Shown: positions 41,322 to 60,880 of the stretch, one piece after another
How positions within the stretch are numbered: position 1 is the stretch's first letter
Layout: every line of letters begins with the position of its first letter
Assembly (NCBI GenBank): GCA_037043015.1
Contig: CM073323.1
Span: 21,542,758 to 21,606,757 of the forward strand
Source: Bryum argenteum
Lineage: Eukaryota; Streptophyta; Bryopsida; Bryales; Bryaceae
Direction of reading: 5' to 3'
DNA: 64,000 nucleotides
Position numbers and translations under genes: made by a program
Notes under the pieces: model-generated
Database searches by the model: none
The model's input: only the letters and a program-made list of their open reading frames with translations
What the model was told of the DNA's origin: nothing

Positions 41322-41324
41322 ATA

Positions 41325-42135
41325 TACATACATATACACATATATACATACACACATACACACATGCACACATACACACACATACACACACATACACACA
41401 CATACACACACATACACACACATACACACACATACACACACATGCACACACATACACACACATGCACACATACACACATACACACACATACACACACATA
41501 CACACACATACACACACATACACACACATACACACACATACACACACATACACACACATACACACACATACACACACATACACACACATGCACACATACA
41601 CACATACACACATACACACATACACACATACACACATACACGCACATACACACAGACACACACACATACACACACATGCACACATACACACATACACACA
41701 TACACACATACACACATACACACATACACGCACATACACACAGACACACACACATACACACACATACACACACATACACACACATACACACACATACACA
41801 CACATACACACATACACACATACACACATACACGCACATACACACAGACACACACACATACACACACATACACACACATACACACACATACACACACATA
41901 CACACACATACACACACATACACACACATACACACACATACACACACATACACACACATACACACACATACACACACATACACACATACACACATACACA
42001 CATACACACATACACGCACATACACACATACACACACATACACACACATACACACACATACACACACATACACTCATACATACATACACACATACATACA
42101 CATACATACACACATACATACCTGCATATATACAT
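41325..42135. repeat. CA-rich microsatellite (CATACACACA units), about 800 bp
   Basis: Almost pure CACACATA / CACATACA units with occasional CACG and CACAG variants. All three frames of both strands are open because the array lacks stop codons, giving His/Thr and Cys/Val shadow frames of 250-300 codons. Its right edge grades into CATACATA, which is the target site of the large hAT element. Confidence 0.97.
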
Positions 42136-42153
42136 GTGTACATGCATACATGC

Positions 42154-42161
42154 GTACATAC
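42154..42161. repeat. Left 8-bp target-site duplication of the hAT element
   Basis: GTACATAC lies immediately outside the left end and is identical to 59,412-59,419. Eight bases is the standard hAT duplication length. Confidence 0.85.
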
Positions 42162-42344
42162 CAGGGATGTCAATCCGGACGTCTTTTGGGTTTTTTTGGT
42201 CGGACGGACGTCCGTCCGGGGGGTAAATCGGAATTACTATGCATGTAGTAAATTTTTTAACCGTCAGATCGTATTGAAAATCGCATCGTAGCCGTTCAAA
42301 TAGTGTTGTGAGTGTAGGTGATTACCGTTGATTGAATCGGGCGC

Positions 42345-42700
42345 CCAGACCGTCCGATTGGCCTTGCCGACCGACCGACGACGCCGTCGGATCGGTCGCA
42401 ACCGACGGATTGGTCGCTGATCGGCCGCCGTCCGTCCGACGGTCGCGGTTCGGTCGGCCGTCGGATGGGCCCTGGTCGGCGTCGGCCGTCCGACGGTCGC
42501 GTCGGCGCGTCGGCCGACCGACGGTCGCGATCTCCGTCGGCCGTCCGACGGCTGGTCGGCCCGGGCCGATCGGTCGGGCCGGGCCGGCGCCGGCCGTCGA
42601 CGGGTCGGGCGGTCGGCCATCGGCCGTCCGATTTAGGTTGCCGGTCGGCCATGCGACCACTGCCCTATAAGGCCGACCGACCTCCACTCTCCTCACTTCT
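42345..42700 (+). promoter_or_regulatory. GC-rich leader/promoter of the kinase-like cargo gene
   Basis: A CpG-dense block of GGCCGACCG/CGGTCGG words ends with CCTATAAGG (about 42,663-42,671), a TATA-like box followed at promoter-like distance by a CT-rich start region (CTCTCCTCACTTC) and the first ATG of the cargo frame. The same word composition recurs before other cargo genes of this element. Confidence 0.55.
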
Positions 42701-42832
42701 TTCCTTCGTTATCGTATGCGAGTAGTCGAGGTTGGAAATTTTTTTAATTTTCATCCATTGGCTCCTTATCCTGCAGAGGAAAGAAGTCTTTTCGTTTGTA
42801 AGGGGGGAGATTTTGCTTTTTTTTTCACAAAG

Positions 42833-44322
42833 ATGCCCAAACATGGGGCTGGGGGTAGTGGGGGGAATCGAGGCCGGAGACCAAGGGTTCATAGACATTT
42901 GGAGAAGTGGGAGCACCCATCCAATAAGTGCAAGAACTTTCTTCGGGAGAATGTAATCGTGCAATTTTATGAGGCTAACAGTCTTCCACGTTTGTTTAGC
43001 AAATACGTGAGATACAAAGAGGAAGCTGTGGCCAAATTCAAGGACGACATGATGGACCTCATGATGGAAGCGCTCCAAGATCCGGTGTGGAGAATGGAGA
43101 CTGATAAGCGTGGTTTTACGGACTGGATGGAGGATAGATTAATTGATGCTCTCTGGAATGCTGTCGACATATTGAAGAGGTATGAGAGAACCACTCGAGC
43201 GGGTGATGAGGAGTTCAAGGATGTGGTATTGAGGGCGGAGGCTTTTCAAGAAGCGATGAGGCCGTATTCCAATAATGCAAACCGGGTTGGTTCCATAGGA
43301 TGGTGGCGCACGGAACAAGGAAGGTTAATGGAGCTGGTTCGTACGAATAATTTGGTAGTAATTCCTATGACGGCCCGTATCATCGAGCTTGAGAAGAGGA
43401 CTCTAAGGGAGGATACGGCACAATTTCCAAAGTTCACATAAGAGGGTTGTGGGTATTGAAGAGTTTTGGGAATTTCTTTGCGCAAAGACTCCCATCCATG
43501 TCGCGACACGACCAGGACTTGGCCAAGGTGGAGCATCGAAATGAGGCGCTTCTTTGTGAGGATACAACATCCAGTGTTATTCGTTTTATAGCCATTCATG
43601 CAAATAAATTCCAAGGCTATACGTATTGGTGGAATGGCGGCACGATTCGATCGATGTTGGCCCTTGATGCAAGATATGGAGATGATGTTCATGGAGAGAT
43701 CGGACTCTCACCTCATTCGATGATGAGCTTATTCGAGCTTGGCGGTTGGTCCGGTTCCGCAAAAAACGAACAGAGCTTGCTTGGGCTTTAGTGCATATCA
43801 TGTGTGAAGTCCACCGGTTGAACCACCTCCACAACGATGTGTCTCCGGACAACATACTTCTTCACTTCCCTCAAGATGAATCACGGTGTATATTGGAGTA
43901 TGTGATTGGGGGCTAAATCGAGCATGGATGATAAAATGAGGTCCTTGTATACGTTCACAAAACCCCAAGAGCGAATTGATACTCTACAAGCACGATATTG
44001 GGTAGATCCTCGGGTGGCGTACTTGTACAAACGGAGTGATGACATTCACATTATTCCCCTTCTTGATTGCGCTTCGGAGGAGTTTGCTACGGCACGAATA
44101 GTACAACGCATCCTCAAGAAGAGCATGTCGAAGGCCTACGAGAATTGCCAAAGTACAACGGGGCCTGACCGGTGGTGCAGTCAAGACTTGGCAAATGCTT
44201 TTGACCAATACTTGGAGATGGTGGCTGATGCAAAGTATACGTTGACCCACGTTGTCAACCGCTTCATGGAATCATTCCATTGGCCGGTGCCAAATGATCA
44301 TTATCGCACCAAGTATGATTAG
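42833..44322 (+). pseudogene. Protein-kinase-like cargo gene of the hAT element
   Basis: The N-terminal part is open to 43,441 (an earlier in-frame ATG is at 42,716) and is helical, with no domain I recognise (KWEHPSNKCKNFLRENVIV). After a frame change, 43,447-43,791 should include the N-lobe. In the next frame, HLHNDVSPDNILLHF at about 43,824-43,868 is a kinase catalytic loop: Asp codon 43,836, Asn codon 43,851, with the usual HRD reading HND. After one more shift, VYIGVCDWG gives the metal-binding DFG equivalent as DWG (Asp codon 43,904). A C-lobe-like part with ERIDTLQARYWVDPRVAYLY ends at 44,322 with a WPVPNDHYRT tail. Three frame changes make this copy inactive. The family appears to be a divergent kinase carried by transposons; the substrate is unknown. 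Confidence 0.7.
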
Positions 44323-44985
44323 CAAATTAGTTATGCGCATTTCTTTTAGTTCTTGCGGCTTTATTAGATTTTTAGATTCTTCATTGAAGTTCGATGTAGA
44401 TGTAGGCAAATTTTTGTAGTAAAATGTATTACATGCCTTCTATATGTATCGGCTTCAAGTACATTCTTGTTTATATATACCTTGCACTGATTCTAATGAA
44501 TGACTTCTTCTCCATTGTTTGTTATTTTATTTTATTACTTCTTACCTTCAATAGAAATATCTCCAAATCTTCATGAACAATATTTGAGAATGTATAATGA
44601 ATTGTGGAACTTCTTCATTACATCAACCTTGCGTGAGTTGCGATATTAATGGTTTGTCCGAAGTCACCAAGCATAATATGACTTTTTTACATATGCTTTT
44701 TTTTTAATGAATTGATGAACATATTATATGTTAGGTGAGAGTGTGAGACTGTGAAAAAAGGCTTAAAGCCAAACAGAAGAAATTATTACCACCAAGTGAA
44801 CTTATAGTATAAAATACAAAGACATCGCCATAAAATCCTTGAAATAACAAATTACATAGTATATTAATATACAACGATATAGTCCGATATTGGATAATCC
44901 ATTCATAAACAAAATATGGATTTCTGTATCCTCAAAATTGGCCCCTAGCAAGGCGAGAATGGTGTAGACATTATCCGCTGCCAAA
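44323..44985. other. AT-rich spacer between the convergent cargo genes
   Basis: Probable 3' untranslated and terminator region of the kinase-like gene and of the convergent minus-strand gene. No motif-bearing frame was found. Confidence 0.5.
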
Positions 44986-46248
44986 AACTACATAATCTTC
45001 ACTACAATGACACTATGTATGATGATTTGTCATTCTTAATCCGATTCTTCATCATCGTGTTTACGACTTGGCGCAGCGCCGTAAGAAGGTGGTCCTCGAG
45101 AAGATTCTCCAAACAAGTACGTTTGCCTAAAGTTTCTTTCGGCTTCGAGCTGTTCAATGTATTCCTGCTGACTTAGAAGTGTGGCTTGTTGCAGATCTTG
45201 TTGGTACCTCGCCTCTTCGTCCTCCGGAGATAGATAAGGTGCTGAAGGCAGGTCATTACTTCCGTATGCATTCTGACCATATCCATAATTTGTGTAGCCA
45301 ACAATGTCTGATCTTCTATCATATTGACCTCCATACTCGTATGTTTCCTTCGGGTGTGATGGCCTACGGTACTCGGGACTTCCGAATGTTGTACCGTATT
45401 GGTTTCACGATTGTATGGGTTTATAGGATGAGTTGGGCTTGAGTTGCATTGAGCATTGGATCCGCTACCCCCGCTCACCTCCTAAACCATGTGTACCTCC
45501 TGTATACATTGGAGATGGGTAGTTCGAACTAGATCCACCTCTCTACGTACTCGCGTTCGGCTCCGTCGTGTTTTGCTTTGATGAGGTGGCATATAACTCA
45601 CCGGAGTCTTGAATTGGTGGTTTCCATGGTAATACCCCTCACTTCCCGTGCCAAAGGATCTCGGTGCTTGACGATCGTCATGGTTTGAGTCTTCTTGAGT
45701 GCCCCATATGCCCTTGGAGTTCCATGTTGTTGAAGTTGGGCATCCATATCACCGAACGTTCAATACGTAGTATAACAATCGCTTGGTCCCATCCAATTTG
45801 TGGAATGAATCGGTTCTCGCGATCCAATAAATGCACGTTCAAACCTATCACAATGGTCCAGTCAATGTCCTTGTGCGAGAACTATTTCACCACACCATGG
45901 CCATGGTAGAATACAACATCAATTCGGCCTTGTGTTCTTGATTCCAACTCGCAATTGTGACTTCGTGATATCTCAGTGCGCAAAATGGTCGCTTTTGCAA
46001 CTCTTCACCGGGCCTTCACGACGAGGACCATATTTCTCTCCGCCGTGCCGCCATAACTTCATGATGTGGTACATCTTCACGTACTTCTTGCACATGGTGC
46101 AATTCCAAATGTCCGCCCTCTCCTCTCGCCAACCCGGCTCTGCAACACAGTTTGGGTCACTCCATGCTTCCCAATCCATTTTTGGAGGGTCGCCCTTTGG
46201 TCGTGGAGACTTGGCCTCGCCCCTCGAACGTGAAAACTTCGGCGCCAT
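44986..46248 (-). pseudogene. Cargo gene B: CKKYVKMYHI-motif protein, decayed
   Basis: The start chosen is the ATG at about 46,248 (MAPKFSRSRGEAK). An earlier in-frame ATG at 46,371 would add a leader-like stretch. The first 90 residues contain WNCTMCKKYVKMYHIMKLW, then SCKSDHFAH before a stop at 45,973. This Cys/His arrangement could bind a metal. Related but frameshifted sequence continues to about 45,000, including a DWT-type segment equivalent to VNWSTF in gene C, then Gln/Ser/Asn-rich sequence. The same motif order in gene C (52,141-54,345) shows the two are paralogues. The role is unknown. Position and inward orientation match the other cargo genes. Confidence 0.6.
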
Positions 46249-46379
46249 TTCCAGCAGCGACAAGTATGCACAGTGTGGGCGTGGGTGACCCACGCGGACT
46301 CTGAGTAACGCAGTCGATGCAGCTTTAAAAAAAGCCGCAACGCACAGCTCGTTCACCAGAGTGAGGGACAATGAGCCCC

Positions 46380-46670
46380 TCCCCTTCTATTTATGCCGAC
46401 CGGGATCGGACGCCATTGGCCAGCTGGCATTGGCCGTCCGATCCCGGCCGACAGCCGTCAAATCGGCGATCCGGCGGCCGGCGACCGGCCGGTACGACCG
46501 ATCGGGGTCGCACGTCCGATCGGTCGATCGGGGCCGTCCGATGGCGCGGCCGATCGGTCGATCGGGGCCGCCGATCCCGGCCGACCGATCCGGCCGACCG
46601 GCGACCGGCGACCGGGCCGGCGACCGACCCCGTCCCCCGGGCGACCGATCGGTCGCTCCTTCCGCGTCTC
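46380..46670 (-). promoter_or_regulatory. GC-rich leader/promoter of cargo gene B
   Basis: A dense GGCCGACCGATCGG-type block. On the minus strand it ends with GCATAAATAGAAGG (about 46,383-46,396), a TATA-like box just before the gene B leader. It mirrors the block at 42,345-42,700. Confidence 0.55.
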
Positions 46671-47130
46671 CCCTTCCCCCTCCTCCTCTTGCCTCACCCC
46701 AAAACTCCCCGTTTGCACAACTTCGAACACTTCCTCGCCTTGCATACCTGCATTTTCAAAAGTTCTATATTTAGCCTCTTTGGTCCACGTGGCGTCTAAA
46801 TAAGGACATGGAATGTTCTGACAAGGGAATGTCGGGAATGTCTTTTCGTCATAAACGGGAATGTTTTATGACAAAGATACTATCGGCTTTAAAGAAACCT
46901 ATAATAAGGGACTCTTTGCAAGAGGAGGGAAGGCCAACAAATCTCCAAGCCAATTCACGCACTTTTTGAGTTATGTTGCCCAATTAGCTTTAATTGAACA
47001 ATACATTTAACAACCAATTTAGTGGGGCCAATTTTCCGAGTCGTGAAGTCCTTTGGAGTTGAAGCCCATGTCTAGAAGGAGAGCCAAGGCCATGGGGCCA
47101 ATTCTTATTATTAACTAAAGTCCATGTTTT
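46671..47130. repeat. Duplicated segment, copy 1 (with 49,940-50,420)
   Basis: This stretch, starting in CCTCCTCTTGCCTC and containing CACGTGGCGTCTAAATA and GGGGCCAATTCTTATTATTA, recurs with clear but imperfect identity and in the same orientation at 49,940-50,420. It lies just upstream of gene B's promoter. Confidence 0.8.
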
Positions 47131-47162
47131 TTTTTGGTACACATTTATTTTTTATTTTTTGT

Positions 47163-47400
47163 TTTTTGGAATTATTCTTCCCTAACACCTTAACAATCAT
47201 GGCCACCATTTCGTCTTTTATCGTCACGGCCAAAAAATGTTTCATATTCAATTTCAAATGTAATGATCTCGCATCTAGTGATGATCCAACGGTTGAAGAT
47301 TTCACACTACTACATATGGTACTTTACTCAAGATCCTATGGTTGAAATTATAAAGTATATCCAAAAATATTGGACATAGCCCCTTTGTAGTGAAACCACC
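47163..47400. repeat. Degenerate MITE related to 51,238-51,505
   Basis: It shares CATGGCCACC-, ATCT(A)GTGATGATCCAACGGTT- and AAAAATATTGGAC-type blocks in the same order with the well-bounded MITE at 51,238. Its ends are eroded. Confidence 0.6.
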
Positions 47401-48012
47401 TATTCTCGTACACTTAAGGAAAATTGAGGGAATCTATATACTTGGTGTGAGAAAGGAGTGGGTTACTATTTTTCACGGATAGGAAATAGAAAAAGACAAG
47501 CTAACCCTATTTATGTGCTTCTTTAAAGCACACACATAAAGAAATACAAATTTTATAAGGAGAAGCCTAAAGGCGGGCACCCTAAATATGTACGCATAAT
47601 GTAAATGCAAGGGAGGTGAGATCTTTATAAAGTCAAGAATCTTTGCCTCGCGCCTTTAGGTGGTTTCATCATAGTTCATAGTGGTGAGTGCTAGTATTGC
47701 AAGCTCCGTCCCCCAATTCACATTCATTTCTTCTATCTCCCAACTTTTGTCAAAATTTATCCATTCTCACTAGGAGATTTTGCCATGTCTTGGCCCCCAT
47801 TCATGACTTGCCCCGTACTGTGTACCCTGAGGTGGCCCTAAATCCCCTCTAATTACATTCCAAAAATTTTACCTAGTCCTTGGTGAGAATATATTGATGT
47901 CTCACATTGGAGAGATCCAAGTATATATGAAATGTAGGTGATCATGTGTGAGCATTTACTTTTCATAACTTTGGTCTTACTGAGTTTGTCAATATTTAGA
48001 CTTTCTATTTGG
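47401..48012. other. Spacer within the hAT element
   Basis: AT-rich, with no gene or clear repeat, up to the target duplication of the SINE. Confidence 0.5.
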
Positions 48013-48027
48013 GCCTTAACATTTCCA

Positions 48028-48390
48028 GATAGATAGATAGATAGAAACTCCGGTCCCTTTTTAAGGGGCCGGCGTGAATGAAGTGTCCGTTCGTAATGCT
48101 AATATCCCGATGGCCACCGGACAAGGGGAAATTGGAACAATACTACTTCCCCCTCTCGAGGGTGGACACTATAACTACGCTAGTTTCTAGCCTAGTTAGA
48201 AGTGCCTTGAAGATACTTGACATAGTATCCCCCCAAAGGACTTTGAGGTACCCATACAACAAGGTCCAAGGACCCCCCACAATAGTTGGGTGGACTATAG
48301 TGGTGAGCACCACGCCGGCATGGGGAATGGAACCCACGACCTCCTCATTGGGGGCCTAAGCCCTAACCACCAAGCCAAGGCTTGTGGTGC
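48028..48390 (-). mobile_element. tRNA-derived SINE with matching target-site duplication
   Basis: On the minus strand the head GGCACCACAAGCC is followed by an A-box-like GGCTTGGTGGTTAGGG and a B-box-like GTGGGTTCCATTCCC, the internal Pol III promoter of a tRNA-derived SINE. The body ends in GGACCGGAGTTTC and a (TATC)n tail. CTTAACATTTCCA, extendable to GCCTTAACATTTCCA, lies on both sides (48,013-48,027 and 48,389-48,403), so the insertion is recent relative to its host. A copy of the tail region is at 60,768-60,880. Confidence 0.85.
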
Positions 48391-48403
48391 CTTAACATTT
48401 CCA

Positions 48404-48998
48404 CATTGTATGGTCTATATTAATTGATGGGTATTTGGAAATTACTCCGTCGTTGTGTATTCTAATTAGTAATACTTATTATAAAAAATATGGTGCATAA
48501 ACAATTAATTCTATTATTCGCTATTTTTTGTTTGACAACCTTCAACTAACCTAGGAGAATATATATAATCTAGTACATATGATTAATTGTAGCATTATTC
48601 TTATTGTATGGATTTGAATAGTTACTTATTTCCCTCTTACCAAGGTAATTGAAATAAGTTTTCATTGTTACTATTTTTGTAATCATAAAATAAGAGAAAT
48701 AAATAGGGAGACAAATAAATTTTAAAAAATATCCCACCCTCTAAGTGTTTAACATATGGCAATAATGGCATCAACTTCTAAATTTTTAAGCATATTTGAT
48801 ATTGTACAAGTATAGTACATTAGTACTAGGATTAGATGTTATATCAAATTGATTATTCGTATTTTGGATTGATTGATTTGGGAATAGAATATTTTGAAGA
48901 GCCATCACTTCTTCATTTACTGTATGTAATGGATACATTCTCTTGTGGATAAACTTTAAGTTCTTGGTTAAAGATGTATGAATTACTATGTAGGCCTC
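48404..48998. other. AT-rich spacer within the hAT element
   Basis: No gene or recognised repeat. Confidence 0.5.
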
Positions 48999-49047
48999 TA
49001 GGGTATAGGGTTTAGGGTATAGGGTTTAGGGTTTAGGGTTTAGGGTT
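48999..49047. repeat. Interstitial plant telomere repeat (TTTAGGG)
   Basis: Seven consecutive 7-bp units: five TAGGGTT and two TAGGGTA variants. This is the Arabidopsis-type telomere repeat found across most land plants. It lies inside the hAT element, far from any recognisable subtelomeric DNA. Confidence 0.9.
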
Positions 49048-49369
49048 TATGGTCTTGAGGATTTGGGGTGGATTTCATTTTAATCCTAGTTTTTGTGTTG
49101 CAAAGCTTTGCAAACACAATTGTGTGTGGATGTAAAATAATGGATTACTGTATGTATGGTGTAGTTTTCAATTATATTTTACATGGATACAAGTTGCACT
49201 TCTCTACATCGCATAGTTAATGTGTGCAAAATAATCTATTTTGTATTTATCATTTTTGATTGAAGATGTTATTGACATGGAATAAATCACATTTATTGCA
49301 AAGAATATATAGGTACAATATTAAACATCAACATACGAATTATGATTCCAGAGTCTTCAATCTCATAGC

Positions 49370-49760
49370 CTATTTTAAACCAATATTGGAATAGAGTTAC
49401 TATTGTAGGTCATGTGGCTCAGAGTTTAATTCATAGAGCCTCATAGATCATAAGGTATGAGTACTGAAGTAGTGTTTGTACGAAACATCTTTGAATTCGT
49501 GAAGATCTATACTTTTATGGAGTTCACTCGAAATGGTTATGAACTTAAAATTTAAAGTTCAAATGTATCCGTGAAAAAAGAATACTTAGCATTTCAGAAA
49601 TCAACATAGGATTCCTTTTTCATTGTTTAGTAATTACTGAAAATCGAGTAACAGAAATCTTTGAGAAATAAAAAAAGGATCCTATGCAATTTTATCTTAT
49701 TTTAGTTATATATTTAAGGAAAAAAGTTTTTTTTAAAAAAAAATAATAATAAAATAAAAA
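49370..49760. repeat. Duplicated segment, copy 1 (with 51,030-51,668)
   Basis: It shares AATATTGGAATAGAGTTACT, GTAGGTCATGTGG, AAATGGTTATGAACTTAAAA and GATGTATCC/AATGTATCCGTGAAAAA with 51,030-51,668 in the same order. The other copy is interrupted by the MITE at 51,238-51,505, for which this copy provides the empty site. Confidence 0.8.
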
Positions 49761-49789
49761 CTGTACTTTGGCCCCCATTTCGGTTGGCC

Positions 49790-50420
49790 GCCATCGGGCG
49801 GGCGTGCGACCGGCCCGGCGTCCGGCGACCGGCGACCGTCCCGGCGTCCAGCGACTGGCCCAGCGACCGGCCCGACGACCGCCGACCGGCGTGGGGACCG
49901 ACCACGTCCCCCGGGCGACCGGTCGGTCGCTCCTTCCGCGTCCCCCCTTCCCCCTCCTCCTCTTGCCTCTCCCCAAACTCCCCGTTTGCACAACTTCGAT
50001 CACTTCCTCGCCTTGCAAACCTGCATTTTCAAAAGTACTATATTTAGTCTTTATGCTCCACGTGGCGTCTAAATATGGACATGGAATTTTCTGACAAGAG
50101 AATGTCGGGAATATCTCTTTGTCCCACGCGAGAATGTTTTATGACAAAGATACTCTTGGCTTTAAATATATCCATAGTAATGGACTTTCTTCAAGGGGAG
50201 TTAAGGCGAGCAAATCTCCACGCCAATACACTCACTTTTTGAGTTGTTGTGCCCAATTGGCTCGAATCGAAGTAAACATTTAACAATCAATATAGTGTGG
50301 TCAATTTTCTCATTTGTGAAGGCATTGAGAGTTCATGCCCTTGTTTATAAGGAAAGCAAAGGCAATGGGGCCAATTCTTATTATTAGTTAAAGACCATGC
50401 TTTTGATTGTACACCTTAAT
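49790..50420. repeat. GC-rich block plus duplicated flank (copy 2 of 46,671-47,130)
   Basis: A short GC-rich block (49,790-49,945) of the same word composition as the cargo-gene leaders joins a copy of the upstream flank of gene B (49,940-50,420). Together with 49,370-49,760 it looks like the left flank of gene C's promoter fused to the right flank of gene B's promoter with nothing between, that is, an internally deleted derivative. It encodes nothing. Confidence 0.6.
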
Positions 50421-51029
50421 TTATTTTTGTTAAAATATTCCTTCTTAACCCCTAAAGATCCGTGGACACCAAAGTGGAGGTTTCCTATTTCGGGCAGCTT
50501 ACATGAAGAGGTCAAAAGTAATAATTTTTTATTAAATTTTTTCTAGGTGGTCCTTACACCGCAAAGTGCATGTGCTAAAATTTGCATATCCAAATTCCAA
50601 ATTTACAACCTACATCTATAATATTTACGTTTGAAGTCCATTAAGGGCAGTTAAATTTAGTCTTTGTTTGAAATTCTTTTTTGGAAATATGTTCATGAAC
50701 AATTTACTACTTCAGTTCCAAAGTGACCCAAGTCAAAATGTTTGTCTATTTCACAAGGGTACTGTTGAAAGATTACAAAAATAATCTTCACAATTTCTAG
50801 TAATTTCCGATATAAGTCATATAACTCTTTCTTGGATTGATTGTTTTGAAAATATAAAATTTTAAATAGGCATCTCTTCTTCATTTAGAGTATCTAGTGG
50901 ATAAAATCACTCGTGGATAGAATTTGTGGTTTATGGTTTAGGATGTATGAATAACTCTTTAGGATGAGTTCCAAAATAAGTGTCCTACATTAAGATTAGG
51001 ATACTCCAATTGACATTCTCAACCATGCA
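50421..51029. other. Spacer with dispersed repeats inside the hAT element
   Basis: It begins with a CTTAACCCCTAAAG end motif (about 50,436). About 50,680-50,850 is an inverted copy of about 41,060-41,200 outside the element. No gene. Confidence 0.5.
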
Positions 51030-51668
51030 ATATTGGAATAGAGTTACTGTTGTAGGTCATGTGGTTAAAAGTTTGATTCATGAAGCCAATGGTCAATTAA
51101 ATTACAAAAGGAAAATAGAGAAGACAGATATTGATTCGAAACCAAATGAATGCCTTATGTTTGAAACATCTATGAATTTGTGAAGATTTACACTTTAAAG
51201 AGTCCACTCAAAATGGTTATGAACTTAAAATTTATAGTTAACCCCTAAACGACCACGGCCACCGATTCGGCGTTTATGATGAAGGAAAAAATAATTTACA
51301 AATAACTTCAAGCGTTACGATCTCACATCTAGTGATGATCCAACGGTTAAAAATATTCACAGTACTACCAATGGTAGTCTACTTCAAGATCCTACGGTTG
51401 AAATTATCAATAATTTCCAAAAATATTGGACGTACCCCCATTAGTACATAGTGGTTTGTGTTGGGATTTCAAGCTCCCGAAACATTGTGGATTTTTAGGG
51501 GTTAAGATGTATCCGTGAAAAATAATATATTGCATTTCAGAAATCAACCTAGGATTCCTTTTTTCAGTGTGTAATAATCACTGAGAATCAAATAACAAAA
51601 AGCTTTGCGAAAAAAAAAAGGATCCTATGCTATGTAAGATCTCTGAATTTTAAATATATAAAAAAATT
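51030..51668. repeat. Duplicated segment, copy 2, interrupted by a MITE
   Basis: Upstream flank of gene C's promoter; see the copy at 49,370-49,760. The copies align on both sides of the 51,238-51,505 insertion. Confidence 0.8.
51238..51505. mobile_element. MITE with TTAACCCCTAAA terminal inverted repeats
   Basis: It starts TTAACCCCTAAA and ends TTTTTAGGGGTTAA in inverted orientation; 268 bp, non-coding. The paralogous copy at about 49,560 lacks it (AGTTCAAATGTATCC), giving a direct filled/empty comparison. A related degenerate copy is at 47,163-47,400 and another bounded element with the same ends is at 63,705-63,962. Confidence 0.75.
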
Positions 51669-51669
51669 T

Positions 51670-51728
51670 GGCCGCTGCGGTTTTTAAAAAAAATTGAAAA
51701 AAAATTGAAAAAAAAAACCGCAGCGGCC
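51670..51728. repeat. Perfect 16-bp hairpin (GGCCGCTGCGGTTTTT arms)
   Basis: The left arm at 51,670-51,685 and right arm at 51,713-51,728 are exact reverse complements. The loop is A-rich with two TTG interruptions. It sits immediately upstream of gene C's GC-rich leader. Confidence 0.9.
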
Positions 51729-51960
51729 GCCCACATCGGTCGGCCGCGTTGGTCGACCGGCATCGGCGGCGGCCAATAGCCGACCGTCGGCCCCTAACGA
51801 CCGCCACGATCGGCCGGCCCCGATCGGTCGACCGGATCGACCGCCACGACCGTCGGCCGGACCGCCGGCCAAGACGGCCGCGGCCGTGATTGGCGAGCGA
51901 CCGTCCGTCTGGCCGGTCCCTAGGGTTGGGAAGGAGGGGGATAAAGGGCTTTGGGGCCTC
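51729..51960 (+). promoter_or_regulatory. GC-rich leader/promoter of cargo gene C
   Basis: A CpG-dense GGCCGACCG-type block is followed by GGGATAAAGGG (TATA-like, about 51,939-51,949) and a CT-rich start region (TTTCCCTCACTTCTCC), the same layout as the leader at 42,345. Confidence 0.5.
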
Positions 51961-52140
51961 ATTTCCCTCACTTCTCCTTGTACTCATCCATCTCAATCGA
52001 GCCGCAACCGTAAGCATTAGCTTCTCGTGTCTTGCATTTTTGTGTGTGGCGGGGAAGTCAGCGTGATACTTGCGGTCTTTGCATCGAATTTTTGCATACT
52101 TGGGATATTTTCGGGGTATTTTAAATACTCCCTACTCTTC

Positions 52141-54345
52141 ATGGCGATGGATATTGATAACACGAACATGGAAGCTGATTCTGAACAGACCTTGAGGTCA
52201 CCTGCGACAGAAAACACAAACGCAGGATTGGTGGGGACTGAGTTGGTTTTACATGAGACACCGTCAAAGAGAGTGAAACCAAAAGGAGCGAGACATGAGT
52301 TGCACTACGACATCTTGGATAATGAGGCCATCAAAGCTGAGATCGGTTGGGCCAATGAAACGGAGGAATATTGGAGAATGGCAACGTGCAAGAAATATGT
52401 GAAGATGTATCACATTGGGAAACTTTGGCCTCGAGAATGTCACAAAGTTAATACCAATAATTTTACTTGCAACCCTCAAACATGCAAGGATGATCACTTC
52501 CTTCATCGTGCTGAAGAAGTGTGGGTGGCATTGTTTGGAACTCGTCCCAAGAGCAAGGGTTATTTTTCCTATTCACTCTTGAGCATGGTGTATGCTGAGC
52601 TCATATTGAAGCGCAAGGTGAACTGGAGCACATTCACGGCGAGTAGTGCACATCCTCTTCGAATCGGGAGAAATCAAAAGGATATCCCTGATAGGTTTGA
52701 TCCAGAATCAAACTCTACAAAGGCCTTATTGCAGTACTTGAGGAGGAAAACTCATGAGACGGCGGAGAAGGAATCTCCTCCAACAACCACGACACATCAG
52801 GAGGATGGAAGGAATATGGTTCCTACGGATGCCCCAATCGTAGAACCAACTATAACTGATAGGCTCGAAGGTGCAAACGTAGTTGAAGAACCTCGTGTAA
52901 CCCCGGTACCAACATCAAAGGAGGCAGGGCCAAGTGTAACCCCGGTACCAACATCAGAGGAGGCAGGGCCAAGTGAACCACGAGAAACCAGATCACCTAC
53001 AGATGCCGTAGATGTCATTCATACGGAAAGTAGTATGGTGGAAAATTTCGTGGACTATCTGCATACGGTACCGAGCAATAAGAGATTGGTGGAGTGGTTG
53101 AAAACCGCAGAAATGATGGCTGATTGGTGCAATAAGGTAGATAAAGACGAAGGTTTGCCAGGGGAGGTTAGGCATAAAGCCTCAGGCGGTTCAATAGTTG
53201 CTGTAGGCGTCGACTTCAAAGAGGTGTCAGAAAGACTTGCTACTATATCTCCCAGTTTAGTATCAATGAGTCACGCTTTGGCAACGATGTTGCCTGACAT
53301 TATACAAGCTGCGGTGAATTATGAGGCAATCATAGATCGATTCCACCCTCTACTGAATGAGCGAGCGAAGAATGAGCTAATCATTGAGAAACTGCAGAAA
53401 CAACACTAAATTACGCAACGTCTCCTTGACGAGTTTTACAAGGAATTGCGGTTGTTTGGCCAAGGTCCTGCTAGCGAGTATGTGGCAAAGTACGAAGAAG
53501 CAATGCGCCAAAGGCAGGCGGTAGAAGACTTAGAAGATAACCGATATAAGTATTTAAACTTCTTTCCAACACAGGATGACACTCAGGGGGCTTCATGTAG
53601 TTATGTTTTTCCAGAATGTGATGCGGGTGGTAAAGACGATGGTAAAGAGGATGGTGAAAAGGATGGTAATAAAGATAAGGGGAAGACCATTATCGGGACT
53701 TCTGATAGTCTTTTTTTTTCACAAATTGATGGGGGTGGTAAAGAGGATGGTGAAGAAGAGAAGAGAAAGACGTATACCAGGGATTTATCTCCTCTCAAAG
53801 AGGTTGGTGAAGAGGATGGTAAAGAAGATAAGGGAAAAACCATTATCGAACTAGACGATGATGACGATGATGAACTTCCGGAGGAATTGAAGTTAAGATC
53901 ACAAAAGGAGGTAGATGATGGGCCAGATTGAGCGACAACGAGCATGGGCGATGAAGTTCATGCGCGTGTGAAGAAGGAGAGAGATGTTACAGTTGCGAAA
54001 TTGGAGGAAGCAAAAGCATGCTCAATGAAGTTGGAGGCTACAAGTAAAGAGAGAGATGAGGCAGTCGCTGAATTGGAGGCATTACGGAAAACCTTCAAAA
54101 CGGTAGATTCTACAGAGGCAAAGAATCCACCTTCACCTACGCATACTACCATGGTTGGGATGGGTTCATCGACTTCAAGATAAGAGGAGCTTGGTTTCAA
54201 GAGCAAAAGAAGATCTGAAATCGATTGCATCTACATCAAAGGAATCACGTGAAGTTGTAGATGCTTCATTGGAGAAGTTCGTTAAGAACGGATCGAAAAA
54301 ACGATATGACCCCATAGAGGTCACTTTTTGGGGGGGATATTGAAG
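52141..54345 (+). pseudogene. Cargo gene C: CKKYVKMYHI-motif protein with acidic coiled tail
   Basis: The start chosen is the ATG at 52,141 (MAMDIDNTNMEAD); an earlier in-frame ATG is at 52,027. Open to 53,406, it contains TCKKYVKMYHIGKLW, QTCKDDHFLHRAEEVW, LILKRKVNWSTFTASSAHPL, a tandem VTPVPTS(K/E)EAGPS pair and helical regions (LVEWLKTAEMMADW). TAA at 53,407 then TGA at 53,929 interrupt the same frame, which otherwise continues through FYKELRLFG, repeated GGKEDG acidic-basic units and a coiled coil (VAKLEEAKACSMKLEATSKE) to 54,183. A frame change gives a short helix to 54,343, and a shift in a G7 run at about 54,328-54,334 would lead directly into the RING frame. Gene C and the RING part may therefore once have been one protein. 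Paralogue of gene B; function unknown. Confidence 0.6.
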
Positions 54346-54347
54346 AG

Positions 54348-55541
54348 ATGATGGAGCGTACAAACTACTCTAAGATGGGACGAAACAATGATGTTGATTG
54401 GACTATGGAGATAGAGGAAGGATGGGCGCCGTATAGTAGATTCTCATCGCACCTCCAAGAGTCAGCTCGCATAGTAATCAACACATGCGACCCTCCTCCC
54501 GCAATACTTAAAGACAAATGTGCGGTGTGCCTACATAATTTTGGTCCGGAGGGAGCATACACGTTAGGCCAATGTGGCCATAACTTTCATGTTACTTGCA
54601 TATGCCGATATGCGATGACAAAATCGGTATGTCCAGTATGTCGCTCTCCATTTAGCACGAGATTCTACGAGATGATGGGCATTCGAGATCTTATGCCACC
54701 AGGGCACGAGTTCAACCGATGGAATCTTCCATTGGATCAATACCCGAAGAAATTTCTAAACTACTCTGATTGGGGAAATGCTCTTACCTGGAGTACATCC
54801 GAATCAAAACACCAACTAACCATTCAATTTGGTGGGGATCATGATCAGGTATTTTGGATGACACGAGATTGCGAAATAGAGATCAGGGCGAGGAATATTG
54901 AAGGTGATGAGCAACGAGAGTTGTTTTGTCGTAATTTCGGAGGGCATTGGAGCGTCGAACACAACCGTTTCTTTCGATTTCCTCCAAAGAAAGTGGAAAA
55001 GGGAGAAGATGGTTCGTGGCACGAAATAACCGATTCAACAGGCTTTGGTGAGGAGTACAAGAAGTACGATCATACTCCAATTGGAAGAGCTCTGGTACTC
55101 GCGAAATTGGAGGAGGCCGCAATATACCGGACTTCGATACCGGAAAATTCTTTTGAAGATGTGGAGGTCTCTTATTGGGATGCGGTGAAGAAGTTTGATA
55201 TGCGTATCGATGACGCTATTACATTTTGGAGAGAATGTCTTTTAAACCCAAAAGACACACAACTTCTATTATTGGATGAGTTTGAAGGTGTTGTACAGGA
55301 TGTCATTGCAAAGATCGAGAAGGCCATGGAAATCTTACGTAACAAACAAGTGGATCCGAGCAAAAAGCGGAAGAGGCAATCGGGCGACGATGGGGAGGAT
55401 AGTTGGCAGGCAGGTATGAGAGGCGAAATCGCAGCGGTGGATCGAGAGTATGGAGAGGGCGGTCGAATTGCCCGTCCAAGTCAAAGACCGCGTACTCGCA
55501 GTGTAGCTCAGATTGGCCAATCGGATGGATCTTCAGTTTGA
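54348..55541 (+). CDS. RING-H2 finger protein, hAT cargo, intact frame
   Basis: 397 codons without interruption. A canonical RING-H2 motif spans residues 58-98: Cys58, Cys61, Cys76, His78, His81, Cys84, Cys95, Cys98 (CAVCLHNFGPEGAY, CGHNFHVTC, CPVCRSPF). This is the E2-recruiting zinc fold of E3 ubiquitin ligases. The following 250 residues (MMGIRDLMPPGHEFNRWNLP, LFCRNFGGHWSVEH, helical DAITFWRECLLNPKDT) are not a domain I know. The tail has a basic KKRKRQ cluster, a possible nuclear signal. Upstream, codons GATATTGAAGAG keep the frame open before the ATG, so it may be the C-terminal part of the gene C protein. It is the only cargo frame in the element that is unbroken. Ligase activity is inferred from the finger alone. 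Confidence 0.75.
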   Translation: MMERTNYSKMGRNNDVDWTMEIEEGWAPYSRFSSHLQESARIVINTCDPPPAILKDKCAVCLHNFGPEGAYTLGQCGHNFHVTCICRYAMTKSVCPVCRSPFSTRFYEMMGIRDLMPPGHEFNRWNLPLDQYPKKFLNYSDWGNALTWSTSESKHQLTIQFGGDHDQVFWMTRDCEIEIRARNIEGDEQRELFCRNFGGHWSVEHNRFFRFPPKKVEKGEDGSWHEITDSTGFGEEYKKYDHTPIGRALVLAKLEEAAIYRTSIPENSFEDVEVSYWDAVKKFDMRIDDAITFWRECLLNPKDTQLLLLDEFEGVVQDVIAKIEKAMEILRNKQVDPSKKRKRQSGDDGEDSWQAGMRGEIAAVDREYGEGGRIARPSQRPRTRSVAQIGQSDGSSV

Positions 55542-55576
55542 AGTTAGAACGGATGTTGGACCTTAAGTTCCACATA

Positions 55577-55645
55577 TATAACTATATATAACTATATATA
55601 TCTATATATATCTATATATATCTATATATATCTATATATATATTT
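55577..55645. repeat. TATATC/TATAAC microsatellite
   Basis: Repeated CTATATAT and ACTATATATA units, then a T-rich run, just after the RING gene. Confidence 0.9.
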
Positions 55646-56175
55646 TTTTTCTTTTTTTAGATTGTATGGTTGTTGTTTTAAAAATGATGCAAATGCCACC
55701 ATTGATCCATGGGGCCTTATTTTTGAAGTAAAGGGTTACAAACTTACAATCTTTTTTGATTTAATGTGCATTTCTTTTGTATGCTTGAGAGTGAAGACTA
55801 TCGTACGACAAGTATGTAAAAATATATGTAATATTTTTCAAAACATTAAATGTAGTCATGTAGACAATAGAATCTCCAAATGCATTTGGAGTATAACAAT
55901 AAAGTACTACAGTAAACTATAACTACAATTTCTATAATAAGTATAAGTCCTATGAACCTATACTACATAAAGATGCCAAATTCAACTACTCATCAGGACC
56001 AGAGGATTGCTCATAATCGCTATCTCCCTTCACTTCAGCTCCACTAGATCCCGTAGGATCATATTCATAATCGCTTGGAACCTCCTCTTTGATCTTGGGT
56101 TTATTCTCTAGACATTGTATATTCCCATACTTATGCCAAGTATCAAATTCGGGAGATTAACAGGATCTTCGGTTT
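55646..56175. other. Spacer between the convergent RING and transposase genes
   Basis: AT-rich. It contains the probable 3' regions of both genes. On the minus strand, 55,985-56,175 still looks compositionally coding (acidic), so the transposase tail may extend into it in another frame. Confidence 0.45.
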
Positions 56176-58960
56176 TTAGGCGGAACAATTGGAACCGTTG
56201 CGATTTCCGTTTATGCGACTTGGAAGTGCCAAGCATGTCTTTGTGTAACCCCGGCGAAGACGAAGAACATTGGCATTCTTTAAATACCCGCCCAACGGTA
56301 CATCGTAGTCACTAGAGATGCTCCCATATTTGGCTCTTGAAAGGGATACTAAACCCTTAGACGATTTCTCCAAGGTTGTCGTAACCCTTGTAGTAGAGGT
56401 TGAAATAAAGCGTGGGGAGTAGCACATTGATCGATACACGATCCTTACTACCGGATGCAATATTCTCCGCGACCGGATCGAGCTCATAGTGCCCGCGATT
56501 TGTGTTGCACGCAGCGGGTCTTCGCATCTATCGCCTCCTTTTCCAACCGTAAACCAAGACATCGATACTGGTAGGACGTTATTTGATTTGTCCATGCCGC
56601 CTTGTGTCATTAACCGGACTAACGGCTGCTCATCATCTAGATCATCCGCTGAAAGACCATGAGCGATAAAATCACCATTACCATCATGAACATTTGGAGC
56701 ATCTTCATCATTTGAAGCGGGGAAGAAAGTCATATCATCATCTTCATCGCCAAATTCAAAAACATAATTGTCATCACACTCTGATTCGTCCTCGACAGCT
56801 TCCTCATCATTCTCATGTACTTGGTCTTCCTCTAAATCCAAGTTCTCTCTATACCACCGCCCATCATCACTCAACTTATCATTTGCGAGCAATTTCGAGT
56901 TGGAATATATGTAGACCAAGTCATCAGCTCTGCCCGGTAGTAACCGATTCCGTTTCTTGTCGTGAACATAAGAGTAACTACTCGATTGTCGTTCATGTCG
57001 ACGAGGACACGGTGCTCGCGCTAGTATTCGCTTTGCAATTGGAGAGAGGAGCTTAGCACAAGCACCTTCAAACTCCCACCATGCATGTGGAGCTAGTTTT
57101 TGAGTATTAGGCTCCAACATGTCATGGAATGGTGGACCCCTTACTCGAAACGCAAGAAATTCACTCACCACGTCTGCGTAATCCTCCGCGGGACATAATT
57201 TTTGTAAAACACGCTTGCAAGCGATTGTAAGATCGGGATCGTCAGCTAACTCTTGGTCGTGTAGTAAATAAGGATTTAAAAGTGCAGCCGCGCCATGTAA
57301 ATCCGTTGTCATGAGCCGTTTCCGATGGTAAAACTCCTCTTTTGCGGTGGCCACCTCAAGTGGTTCCAATGAGATGGGCGGTGCGTGCAAAGTATGGACA
57401 TGTCTCTCAAGATCACGCATAATATGCCATGCCTTGCCCGTACTAGGAGCCTTGCCGTCGAATTCTCTCAGAGCGTACACCACGGGGCAAACCATATCCC
57501 GTAGTCTTTTGCATTGCTTCCAAAACTCATCGCTCAACACCACCTTCTTGACCTTACGTGAGAATATAAGCTTATCTCTAGCGAGATACCGTCTTCTTCG
57601 AGGCATAGGTCATGAAACATAGGGTCGACAACAACTTGCTCCAATGATTCCTTGACCTCCAACAAGCGATCTATCATTATGAATTGACTAGCAAATCTTG
57701 TTTTCCCGGCATCGTGGGGTGAATTTCGCCTCGTGTTTACGAAAAAGCGAGGCTAGGGGCATTTGTCGCCTCTTGATAAACTTGACCATTTTCTTCGCCA
57801 TGACCAAAGTATTCGCCATCCATCCACCCTTTTTCCCCCAATCCTCCAACAACAAGTCCATTGCATGTGTCGCACACCCTTGCATGAAAATGTGCGGATA
57901 TTTCTCAAGGACTATTCTTGAGGCATTGAGCATTACAGAAGCATTGTCTGTGCATACTTGAACAATGTTCTCTGGTCCAACTTCTTCTATGTACTTCAAC
58001 ATGAGAGTTGACATGTACACCGCTTTTTTTTTTGCCGCAGTATCGACAAAGACCAAGAAAAAGCTCTCCGGCTTGAGTCACGAGCATCGCATTCACCAAA
58101 GGGCGACTAGTCACAGATGACCATCCATCCATAGTCAAAGTTCCTCCAAACTTCCGAAGGCTCTCAGAGAGTCTACTATCTAGTTTCTTTTGTAACTCCG
58201 TCTTTACTTCTCCTAACAACCTTGTCCGAATGTCATGATAGGATGGTGGAGCATAGGATTTTCAAAATCCCGCAGTCTTCATCACGGCAGCTTTGAACGC
58301 ATCATCGCGGGCTACTGAGAATGGTATATTTGCTTCGTAAAAAAATTTCGCCCAGAGTTTATCCAACTCCCGCCTATCCGCTTCTGCAAAAGTAGCTTCA
58401 ATTGAAGATTGCTTCGTTTGCTTCATAGATCCAAACATCGGGCGAGTATCCCTTATTCCCCTCATATGCATGGAAGAAGCAGAGGTTGACCCTACCAAAA
58501 GATTTGTTGAATTCATGGGGTGCCTAGCGAGGACCCTACACAAGAGTCACTCCTAGGGGTTTCGGGAATGTCATGTTTTGAAGCACTTGGAACGTCCGTG
58601 GATGGAGTGAGAGAACATTCACCGAGAAATAGTTCCAATTCTCCGTTATATGGAGGGAACTCCCTACCACATCTTAAAAATAACTGCCTAATTTCCCTAG
58701 GCAGCTTTGGGCAAAAGGCAGAACTCGAATCCCTATGTCCGGGAATCTTCGTACCCATAATGACTCAAATTCCGACTCTTCTTCTTGAAACAATTACACG
58801 ACATAGTGAGCACTGTAGGAAGGACCCAGACGCTTTGCCTTCCTTCTCGATGTCTCTAAACCAAGGCACATGTGGAGCAGGGCCCATTTTGATAAATAGG
58901 ACGCCTCAAAGTCTTAAACAATGGTGGGACCGTGACGGGGAAAAAAATGGCAAGAGTTCC
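56176..58960 (-). pseudogene. hAT transposase (BED finger, catalytic core, dimerisation domain), broken
   Basis: Read on the minus strand from about 58,885: MGPAPHVPWFRDIEKEGKAS, a BED-type finger start (LQCSLCRVIVS, damaged around 58,770), then KIPGH and FCPKLPREIRQLFL. The DUF659-type core follows: LDKLWAKFFYEANIPF, PPSYHDIRT, GGTLTMDGWSSVTSRPL (first catalytic Asp) and VQVCTDNASVML (second Asp), then GCATHAMDLLLEDWGK. The C-terminal piece (57,606 onward) has LNPYLL, HAWWEFEGACAKLLSPIAKRIL and SYVHDKKRNRLLPGRADDLVYIYSN, the hAT dimerisation region, and an acidic tail. Stops (TGA at about 58,254) and several frame changes break it. It is inward-facing from the right end, so it is the element's own transposase. 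Confidence 0.85.
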
Positions 58961-59087
58961 TTACGGAAATCCTCACTTCCGAACTCAATACCTACCAAGC
59001 AATGTACACATAAAATGAATTATGTGGCTCATAGCTCTTGGAAAGTGTTCAAAATTCGGAAGTGAAATGAGACTCAATGTGTCTTCT

Positions 59088-59330
59088 CTTATATACCATC
59101 CAACTCCGAATATGACCGTTGCAATTTGAAGTTGAAATGCTCCTAAACCGTTGGATGCTCAAAAGGGCCATCTGGCCGTTGGCGGTCGCAGGATGCGAGG
59201 GCCGGTCGCAGTGGCCGACGGCCGGTCGCCCTGGCCAGCCGACCGGTCGGTCGGGCCGACGGAGAGGTCGGGGACCGGTCGACGGGGTGGTTCGACCAAT
59301 GAACGCACCCCGTTGGTCATTTACCCTTGG
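59088..59330 (-). promoter_or_regulatory. GC-rich leader and TATA box of the transposase gene
   Basis: On the minus strand a GACCGGTCGG-type block (about 59,165-59,300) is followed by GGTATATAAGAG, a clear TATA box (rc at 59,088-59,095), about 200 bp before the first transposase codons. The GC-rich block sits between the TIR and the box. Confidence 0.6.
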
Positions 59331-59387
59331 TAAAACGACCAGATTTTCTAAGTCACGGACGGTCCCCGGACCCCTGCCGGACGTCCA

Positions 59388-59411
59388 GACGTCCGGACGC
59401 TGTGACATCTG
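59388..59411 (-). repeat. Right terminal inverted repeat of the hAT element
   Basis: Read inward: CAGATGTCACAG, then CGTCCGGACGTC. It matches the left end at CAG, ATGTCA and TCCGGACGTC with small gaps. Confidence 0.8.
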
Positions 59412-59419
59412 GTACATAC
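59412..59419. repeat. Right 8-bp target-site duplication of the hAT element
   Basis: GTACATAC, identical to 42,154-42,161. Confidence 0.85.
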
Positions 59420-60767
59420 ATATATGTTCTTGCGTAAAATGGGTAGGAAGAGCATGGCAAAAGAACTTCCACTCGATTGAGTTTGTAGAGAGAGACTTGC
59501 ATAGAGAGAGACTTGCATGTGTGGATCGCACCGGCACCGACCTTTCGCAGTAAAACTTACAGAAATTGATGGGAGGTGAGGTAAACAAATGTCGACTAAG
59601 AGCTTATTCCGCCCTGAAATTCTTAAGCCCGCCTTGAAATTCTTGAGAATCAACACTGCACAGTACCGCATGTTTCGAATTCCTCTCCGGCTGGATGGGG
59701 GCGCCCATCAAGCCAGGGAGATGCTGGCCCCTCCGAAATGATGGTGAGAAGGGGCGGTGGTGTGGTGGTGCTTGCGCCCTTGCGCTTCACATGCTTCCCG
59801 AAAACATGCGGCTTATCCTCCATTTGATGCCTTTACCTCGATCATTCCAGAAAGGATGGCCTGCTTTTCTTGCGGAATATTTTGATTCGAGAATGATGTT
59901 CGAGGTCCCACTTTGCTCTGTAGAAGCATTTCCATTTCTCATGAGCAGAAGAAGGCATCTACTTGAAAGCCATATCTTCGTCCAAGAAACTGTGATAATT
60001 GTAAACATGTTTTCACTATTAACATGACTTTGAGTTTTCCTTATGAGTACTTTAAACATGAAGATATAATTTGGCCAATATATGGATGCAAGCCTTGAAG
60101 GAAGATCCCTGTTCGGTGTATTGCTCCTAGTTAAATAAAAGCGAATGCATTTGCAAGGAGCAAGAAGGCAAGATTGCACCTGAAAAGCGACAAGACCTAG
60201 CCCTATATATAGTACACCTGTCTCTCAAGATTTCTTCACATTATCTTCGAAGTTGAGTTGAATTGGGACGAGTGCCTTGTGACCTCTCTATCTTCTTCTT
60301 GTCTTCGGCCTTTGAGGCCCCTTTATGTCTTGTTTGGCGTATGAAGATGTTGTATATGATGAAGGTTGCTCTTTGTAAATATGGAATTGATATAGTGACA
60401 TCAAATTTGGAAGTACTTTCATGCAAAATTTTAGAGACTAATTCCGCTTTTTTGACCTTCATGAAAATAATTTTTTAGAAGAAGATCAAAATACAACATA
60501 TAGTAAAACATGCACCATGCTAGATATATATTGTTTTAGTATCCCCCAATAGCCTTCAAACCCTCAACTTGAAATTATACCATGATTCTTATGCTCATCC
60601 TATTATTGTACTTTAGGGTTGTAATAGCACACGTCAAAGAAGTATTCAACAAAAACGGAACTTGAATCTCAAAACGACGGAACAAAGTGCAATTGTTACA
60701 GTTAAAAGTAGAATTCTAAGATGAAAAATATTTTCAGCATGCACAAATTTAATCAAAGTCTGTGGGC
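59420..60767. other. Intergenic DNA right of the hAT element
   Basis: No supported gene. The 110-codon frame at 59,695-60,027 has no motif and is overlapped by a minus frame of similar length. About 60,419-60,505 repeats about 40,855-40,945, and the core of it recurs inverted at about 61,017-61,060. Confidence 0.45.
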
Positions 60768-60880
60768 CAGATAGATAGATAGAAACTCCGGTCCTTTCTA
60801 AGGGGCCGGTGTGAATGAAGTGTCCGTTCGTAATGCAAATATCCCGATGGCCGCCGGACAAGGGGAAATTAGAACCTGTG
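60768..60880 (-). mobile_element. 5'-truncated copy of the SINE tail
   Basis: It is nearly identical to 48,028-48,135: an AGATAGATAGAT tract, ACTCCGGTCC, AAGGGGCCGG, GTGTCCGTTCGTAATGC, ATCCCGATGGCC and CCGGACAAGGGGAAATT. Only the 3' part is present, so it is either a truncated SINE or the 3' end of the partner LINE. Confidence 0.75.

Follow-up and report, generated by a model that had tools for sequence, protein, structure and literature searches.

A high-copy family of 17-kb hAT transposons in the moss Bryum argenteum with a recurring set of likely accessory genes

Classical plant hAT transposons such as Ac/Ds measure about 2.5-5 kb and contain one gene. The group is defined by a transposase with a dimerisation domain, short ends and duplications of up to 8 bp, its non-autonomous members outnumber the autonomous ones, and none was reported for the moss Physcomitrella (PMC6027215). 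Multi-gene hATs have also been described, namely ToxhAT, a 14-kb element of fungal wheat pathogens with eight genes and 74-bp ends (PMC6737239, PMC9594970), and the elements S0-S2 of Pandoravirus celtis, which at 7.3-10.3 kb hold a transposase and 6-10 further genes between inverted ends (PMC6418002); for the VANDAL elements of Arabidopsis, VANC anti-silencing genes have been reported (PMC10398659, PMC5735166). Here we describe a hAT element of 17,250 bp at positions 42162-59411 of a 64,000-nucleotide stretch of the genome of the moss Bryum argenteum (assembly GCA_037043015.1, contig CM073323.1, positions 21,542,758 to 21,606,757 of the forward strand; hereafter the window, to which all coordinates refer). 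Its inverted ends are short, and it is flanked by a perfect 8-bp target-site duplication, GTACATAC. We consider it likely that it represents a high-copy family of 17-kb hATs whose recurring genes are accessory ones, aiding transposition or escape from host silencing. A giant plant hAT with recurring cargo was not found in literature searches limited to open-licence papers, which is weak evidence of absence.

The element and its copies

An earlier note on this DNA, made from the letters of the window only, had proposed a single 17.25-kb hAT with related inverted ends, a perfect octamer abutting both of them and a hAT transposase inside the right end, and ends, octamer and transposase were all found as described. 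The octamer is read at both borders, and CAGGGATGTCA stands at both ends, the similarity beyond it being partial. The copy in the window is decayed: its right end is degenerate (...GTGACATCTG, where the terminus of other copies reads ...GTGACATCCCTG), and three of its genes, the kinase-like, the RING and the transposase gene, are interrupted.

Each end was used to search the genome (258.8 Mb), which gave 300 left and 344 right candidates at first look, 40 of each of which were scored. There are 101 exact copies of the 22-base left end and 115 of the right one, against none in reversed controls, and allowing 3 mismatches over 31 bases raises the number of left ends to 181 (control 0). For 100 of the 101 left and 100 of the 115 right exact ends pairs were then formed by strand and distance (up to 60 kb), a procedure that misses the right end of the window copy itself, other ends with a changed base and right ends outside the 100 compared. 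In this way 47 of the 100 listed left ends pair with a right end within 60 kb, two of them at 16.0-16.4 kb, 25 at 16.5-17.7 kb and 20 at longer distances (to 51.7 kb), whereas 53 have no partner; since a nested copy makes one right end serve two left ends, the pairs reduce to 46 independent ones, of which 24 belong to the main class. Two of the long pairs, at 35.4 and 30.9 kb, were read; both are flanked by perfect duplications and contain inserts with open reading frames (ORFs) that resemble, by eye, retrotransposon integrases. Among the listed exact ends no pair is shorter than 16.0 kb, and none was obtained when the right ends were given the wrong orientation. Therefore no cargo-less form was seen among them. 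Nor did the left and right parts turn up as separate elements with ends of their own, which the earlier note had named as the outcome that would speak against it and which is the arrangement of a ToxhAT-type composite; the listed ends pair at about 17 kb.

Both borders were read for 20 copies, comprising that of the window, nine that were fetched whole and ten by their ends only; the stretch J_C2, the left end of which is missing from the part fetched, was excluded from this count. As is typical of hAT insertions, the 8-bp flanks are identical in 17 of the 20 copies, and they match at seven of eight positions in two copies and at six of eight in one (for the pair C8:7482, in which the last base of the right end is changed, the flanks were compared by eye). 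The insertions L017 and L019 differ in their flanks but have the octamer ATTCGAAT in common, and that of a third insertion, E_C2, is ATTCCAAT; these octamers possibly reflect a target preference. Moreover, one copy, C1:11662875, sits within the left end of another, C1:11662382 (L046, L047). Joined minus one octamer, the flanks of this nested copy align without interruption and at 78-89% identity to the left end of ten of eleven long stretches, the exception being J_C2. The empty site is thereby shown for the nested copy, of whose interior only the transposase match was seen, and not for the insertion in the window. Taken together, the 8-bp duplications, the paired ends and the empty site show that the element is mobile as a single unit.

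The genes of the element and selection on them

The eleven long stretches compared are the window copy and ten others, A to J. Nine of these ten are collinear with the window copy from end to end and carry the same cargo, barring inserts and local losses (F lacks 56.3-57.5 kb and G lacks 44.4-45.1 kb); the tenth is J_C2. The search for the same cargo between the same ends, which the earlier note had recommended, thus found it to recur. From left to right the genes are a kinase-like gene (+), a RING-less paralogue (-) of the gene that follows, a RING-H2 gene (+) and the transposase gene (-). Genome matches are 95-100% identical for the RING gene (40 scored of 302 candidates) and 94-100% for the transposase (40 scored of 359). 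All genes are open together, as judged by eye, in none of the ten stretches with listed ORFs, which do not include J_C2. Matches to NCBIfam models were weak and below the cut-off.

The kinase-like gene is open over 468 codons in copy A_C5. Its relatives comprise 61 proteins with identities of 28-63%, some across part of the length and others of similar full length, the top matches being 57-58% identical over 88-94% of the query; those with names come from the moss Ceratodon purpureus (P0004, 57%; P0040, 42%, with 126 member sequences) and from one bacterial metagenome-assembled genome record. Among 42 stretches from such bacterial genomes one weak kinase match was seen (35% over 58 residues). 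A viral origin was considered and rejected, as no relative was confirmed in viral_contigs (31 pattern stretches). In 33 aligned sequences the lysine, the glutamate, the ND of HND, the following asparagine and DW are invariant and the H is kept in at least 90%; catalytic-type residues are thus present in variant form (HND, DWG/DWA). The model of P0004, with a predicted local distance difference test score (pLDDT) of 85, has a kinase fold, matching protein kinase structures with a best E of 8e-9. Yet the family's own kinase ORF stays below the Pfam kinase cut-offs, and P0004 passes PF07714 by 0.1 bit. Because of the invariant residues and the model match on the one hand and the sub-cut-off scores on the other, we class the predicted cargo kinase as a divergent family in which HND replaces HRD and DWG replaces DFG.

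The RING-H2 gene, with a product of about 1,100 amino acids, would by its finger (PF13639, 38.2 bits against a cut-off of 27.3) be ubiquitin-ligase-like. The kinase-like and RING genes had both been recognised in the earlier note, and rightly so; its count of separate coding regions did not hold, because the ORF of unknown nature at 52.0-53.9 kb and the RING ORF at 54.3-55.5 kb belong to one gene. This follows from copy I_C7, in which 872 codons from the middle to the end are open, and from the relative P0001, a single protein of 1,039 amino acids that extends across both ORFs. Three related proteins, 41-56% identical, were found among 7,986 candidates scored. On the opposite strand, the region at 45.0-46.4 kb is a paralogue of the N-terminal part of the RING gene (37% identity over 118 positions, E=2e-24). 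One block of the RING gene occurs in two forms, five of nine other copies (B, D, F, I and J) having one that is 64-77% like that of the window, and the remainder of the gene is mostly 93-100% identical among copies (G_C1 was left out of the RING alignment and the RING identity table). Since so diverged a block sits in otherwise near-identical copies, it would imply exchange between diverged lineages, and it probably is a fast-evolving part as well.

The transposase has 61 related proteins, the best of which, P0065 (967 amino acids), is 94% identical to the family consensus; named relatives come from Ceratodon (36%) and Primulina huaijiensis (29%). The hAT dimerisation domain PF05699 scores 21.5 bits against a cut-off of 21.4 in the window copy and 45.2 bits in P0065, and PF04937 is present in both. 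The motifs MDGW, TDNA, CxxH and WWEFE are visible in the protein and may contain its catalytic D-D-E residues. An N-terminal BED zinc finger received no Pfam call (E<=1; E<=0.5), though a CxxC...H pattern is visible, and P0065 had no match in phage records. The MULE domain was seen at E=0.011-0.015 only, below its curated cut-off; with this and with duplications of 8 bp, the element does not group with VANDAL or other Mutator-like elements.

Some of the left ends in which one base is changed belong to an older subfamily. Its copies L063 and L064 share 89% identity with the young ones, have TTTTGAGTT near the left end and over the 5 kb fetched are collinear with the young copies and contain the same cargo; in a third fetched stretch, L062, only about 140 bases match. 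Changes fixed between old and young copies have a ratio of 0.42 in the kinase (n=55, p=0.0013) and of 0.07 in the N part of the paralogue (n=10, p=0.00014), without stops in either. Changes private to one old copy look neutral (kinase 1.13, paralogue N part 1.43, C part 0.78; five, zero and three stops, respectively). The kinase and the N part of the paralogue are thus shown to be under purifying selection between the subfamilies, and at least two regions of the cargo were therefore constrained while the element moved.

Among the young copies, the gene alignments kept copies of fitting length (kinase and paralogue 9 of 11 each, RING gene 10 of 11, transposase 11 of 11), and the test of non-CpG variants used 10 or 11 rows and skipped sites with fewer than six letters. 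For singleton changes the ratio lies at 0.67-1.08 in seven of the eight gene pieces, all with stops, and at 0.58 without stops in the N part of the paralogue, which roughly fits decay after insertion. Shared changes, in contrast, date from the transposing lineage. Their ratio is 0.20 for the 372 codons of the RING and C-terminal part (n=12, p=0.006) and 0.38 for the N part of the transposase (n=30, p=0.008), p-values that, like all given here, are uncorrected and that fail correction for the 16 non-CpG tests. That failure is one of several points that weigh against a cargo maintained by selection. The ratio of shared changes in the kinase is 0.58 (n=39, p=0.07), and the other parts are at or above one, with 1.00 for the N part of the RING gene and 1.05 for its 872-codon stretch, 1.21 (n=8) and 1.20 (n=13) for the two paralogue parts and 1.23 (n=13) for the C part of the transposase. 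The older subfamily is represented by two copies of 5 kb each, in which the C part of the paralogue has a fixed-change ratio of 0.87 (n=17, p=0.48) and one stop. For the two-form block, the ratio of nonsynonymous to synonymous differences (pN/pS) between I_C7 and the window copy is about 0.94 over 109 codons (interval 0.65-1.48), and the fold model of the RING protein (P0001, five sequences; pLDDT 35) is not usable. Selection, then, is not uniform across the cargo.

Other features of the window copy

Table 1. Features of the hAT element in the window
Feature	Position	Strand	Remarks
Target-site duplication, left	42154..42161		8 bp, GTACATAC
Left terminal end	42162..42183	+	CAGGGATGTCAATCCGGACGTC; 101 exact genome copies, reversed control 0
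Left CG-rich block	42340..42660		CGGTCG-type repeats; upstream of kinase-like gene
Kinase-like gene	42833..44322	+	Gly-rich loop, EFAAK, HNDVSPDN, DWG; frameshifted in window copy
RING-less paralogue	45036..46248	-	CKKYVKMYHI domain; in ORF pieces, start predicted
Internal CG-rich repeat block	46390..46800		Upstream of paralogue
Spacer	46598..51747		Two diverged tandem units, 46.6-49.7 and 49.8-51.7 kb; no evident gene
Insertion, 358 bp	48031..48388	-	Absent from compared copy at this site and from alignments of other copies
CG-rich repeat block	51720..51920		Upstream of RING gene
RING-H2 gene	52141..55541	+	N-terminal CKKYVKMYHI domain, helical middle, RING-H2 finger 54513-54644, conserved C-terminal part
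Two-form block of RING gene	52930..53400 (borders approximate)	+	Forms 64-77% alike
hAT transposase gene	55986..58887	-	DUF659, Dimer_Tnp_hAT; frameshifted in window copy
Right CG-rich repeat block	59150..59300		Upstream of transposase gene
Right terminal end	59390..59411	-	Degenerate in window copy (CAGATGTCACAGCGTCCGGACG); CAGGGATGTCACAGCGTCCGGA in 115 exact copies
Target-site duplication, right	59412..59419		8 bp, GTACATAC

In the window copy 97 of 100 hits of CGGTCG-type motifs fall into the bins of five CG-rich blocks, two at the ends and three internal. Four of these blocks lie upstream of the four genes (Table 1); the fifth, at about 49.77-50.03 kb in the spacer, is an orphan with no gene evident next to it. 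The end blocks may double as promoters and as transposase sites. The spacer, which separates divergent cargo genes, might specify an RNA or have a regulatory role; a scan for RNA families over 42000-59600 gave zero matches at the gathering score.

The 358-bp insertion in the spacer is outside the structure of the family. It has a 15-bp repeat, GCCTTAACATTTCCA, on both sides and an AGAT run. It may be a short interspersed nuclear element, since its minus strand contains sequences that we take to be tRNA-like boxes A and B; an Rfam scan of 48000-48420 gave zero matches at E<=1. A stretch related to it lies at 60769-60875, beyond the right border of the element. About 200 bp of the spacer (50607-50806) recur inverted and 80% identical at 41066-41266 outside the element, and a simple repeat of the (CACATA)n type, about 0.8 kb long (41300-42130), stops just left of it.

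Role of the cargo and comparison with known systems

But why would a transposon keep a kinase-like gene, a RING gene and a paralogue of the latter? We believe that they form a resident accessory module, most likely an anti-silencing one, that would help the element, as the recurrence of the cargo and its partial constraint suggest. Because parts of the cargo changed as expected under selection, the genes likely help the element to spread and are not accidental riders. The earlier note had likewise inferred a resident cargo and drawn an analogy with giant cargo transposons of other groups; the inference is supported and the analogy fair, except that the selection data favour resident accessory genes over exchangeable cargo. 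By analogy with the hAT family, the transposase would bind the end blocks and cut and paste the whole 17 kb, while the CGGTCG-rich blocks might act as promoters of the element's genes. The kinase and then the RING protein could act in turn on a host protein, phosphorylation being followed by ubiquitination, with the RING-less paralogue tuning the RING protein, and accurate repair after excision would preserve full-length copies. The missing of short paired derivatives may be due to such accurate repair in the moss, for which we invoke moss recombination, or to accessory genes being needed in cis.

A wider proposal, which we put forward tentatively and regard as possible rather than probable, is that a moss-wide clade of giant hATs, of an age at which its proteins have drifted apart to about 50% identity, employs the kinase/RING relay as a dedicated anti-silencing or host-control system. 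This would be aimed by the CGGTCG blocks, which would at once make up the ends of the element and the promoters of its genes, and it would be an arms-race module, VANC-like in effect but of independent origin in another superfamily and acting via ubiquitin. VANC itself is not known to be a kinase or a RING protein. In this context it is of note that the kinase relative P0035 and the transposase relative P0083 come from the same source, with a longest contig of 27,639 bases for both, which suggests that they share one contig and hints at linkage at about 50% divergence; we treat the observation as a lead and not as a result.

It is unlikely, in our judgement, that the cargo instead serves the host, for example as a signalling pair in stress or defence by which hosts with the cargo fare better. 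Purifying selection on the cargo would fit this equally well, and the fungal ToxhAT carries a virulence gene from which its bearer benefits (PMC6737239). However, none of the ten stretches with listed ORFs is fully open by eye and the private changes look neutral, as would follow from selection in the transposing lineage and not at fixed loci. Less probable still is that host genes were trapped once in a large element and have since been carried as functionless passengers. The lack of constraint on several cargo parts and the broken genes of the copies read would agree with this, but it is already weakened by the constraint on the kinase and the N part of the paralogue between the subfamilies. 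Neither would passengers be expected to have relatives as distant as those of the kinase (28-63%) and the RING protein (41-56%) that include similar full-length proteins with catalytic-type residues kept, nor does this fit with the fact that no listed exact-ended pair below 16.0 kb, and thus no cargo-less form, was seen.

Practically no weight is left for a composite of two or more smaller nested or adjacent elements that are flanked by an identical octamer by chance. The internal CG-rich blocks do resemble the end blocks, the spacer is internally duplicated and the left flank is a simple repeat, and a chance match within this CATA repeat had been feared in the earlier note. Yet other copies bear duplications of their own, and the octamer is therefore no coincidence with the neighbouring CACATA repeat. 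For the family, a composite is refuted by the pairing of the listed exact ends at about 17 kb, with none below 16.0 kb and none in the wrong orientation, by the identical octamers in 17 of 20 pairs and by the empty site.

Our preferred reading of an accessory module matters because it concerns a plant hAT of several times the usual size, which with at least 181 left ends has kept three extra genes and has no shortened form among the listed exact-ended pairs. Should the element depend on the extra genes for its success, it would offer a clean system for studying the use that a DNA transposon makes of signalling and ubiquitin genes against its host, and gene replacement is routine in mosses.

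Among the known systems, the element resembles Ac/Ds in its hAT dimerisation transposase, its short ends and its duplications of up to 8 bp; it differs in being several times longer, in having three extra genes and in the lack of short paired derivatives among the listed exact ends. With VANDAL it shares accessory genes within the element and repeated non-coding blocks, but anti-silencing has been reported for VANDAL and is here only proposed, and the superfamily differs: VANDAL elements are Mutator-like, with a MULE transposase and 9-bp duplications. Like the pandoravirus elements S0-S2, it combines a hAT transposase with further genes between inverted ends, whereas the gene sets of S0-S2 differ from one another and reside in a giant virus, and the cargo described here recurs in a chromosomal high-copy family. 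ToxhAT, finally, is likewise a large hAT, with several genes besides the transposase and with terminal inverted repeats; different from what is described for it, the Bryum element belongs to a plant family with 181 detected left ends and a recurring cargo, two parts of which show purifying selection between the subfamilies. Multi-gene hATs are thus not confined to fungal pathogens and giant viruses.

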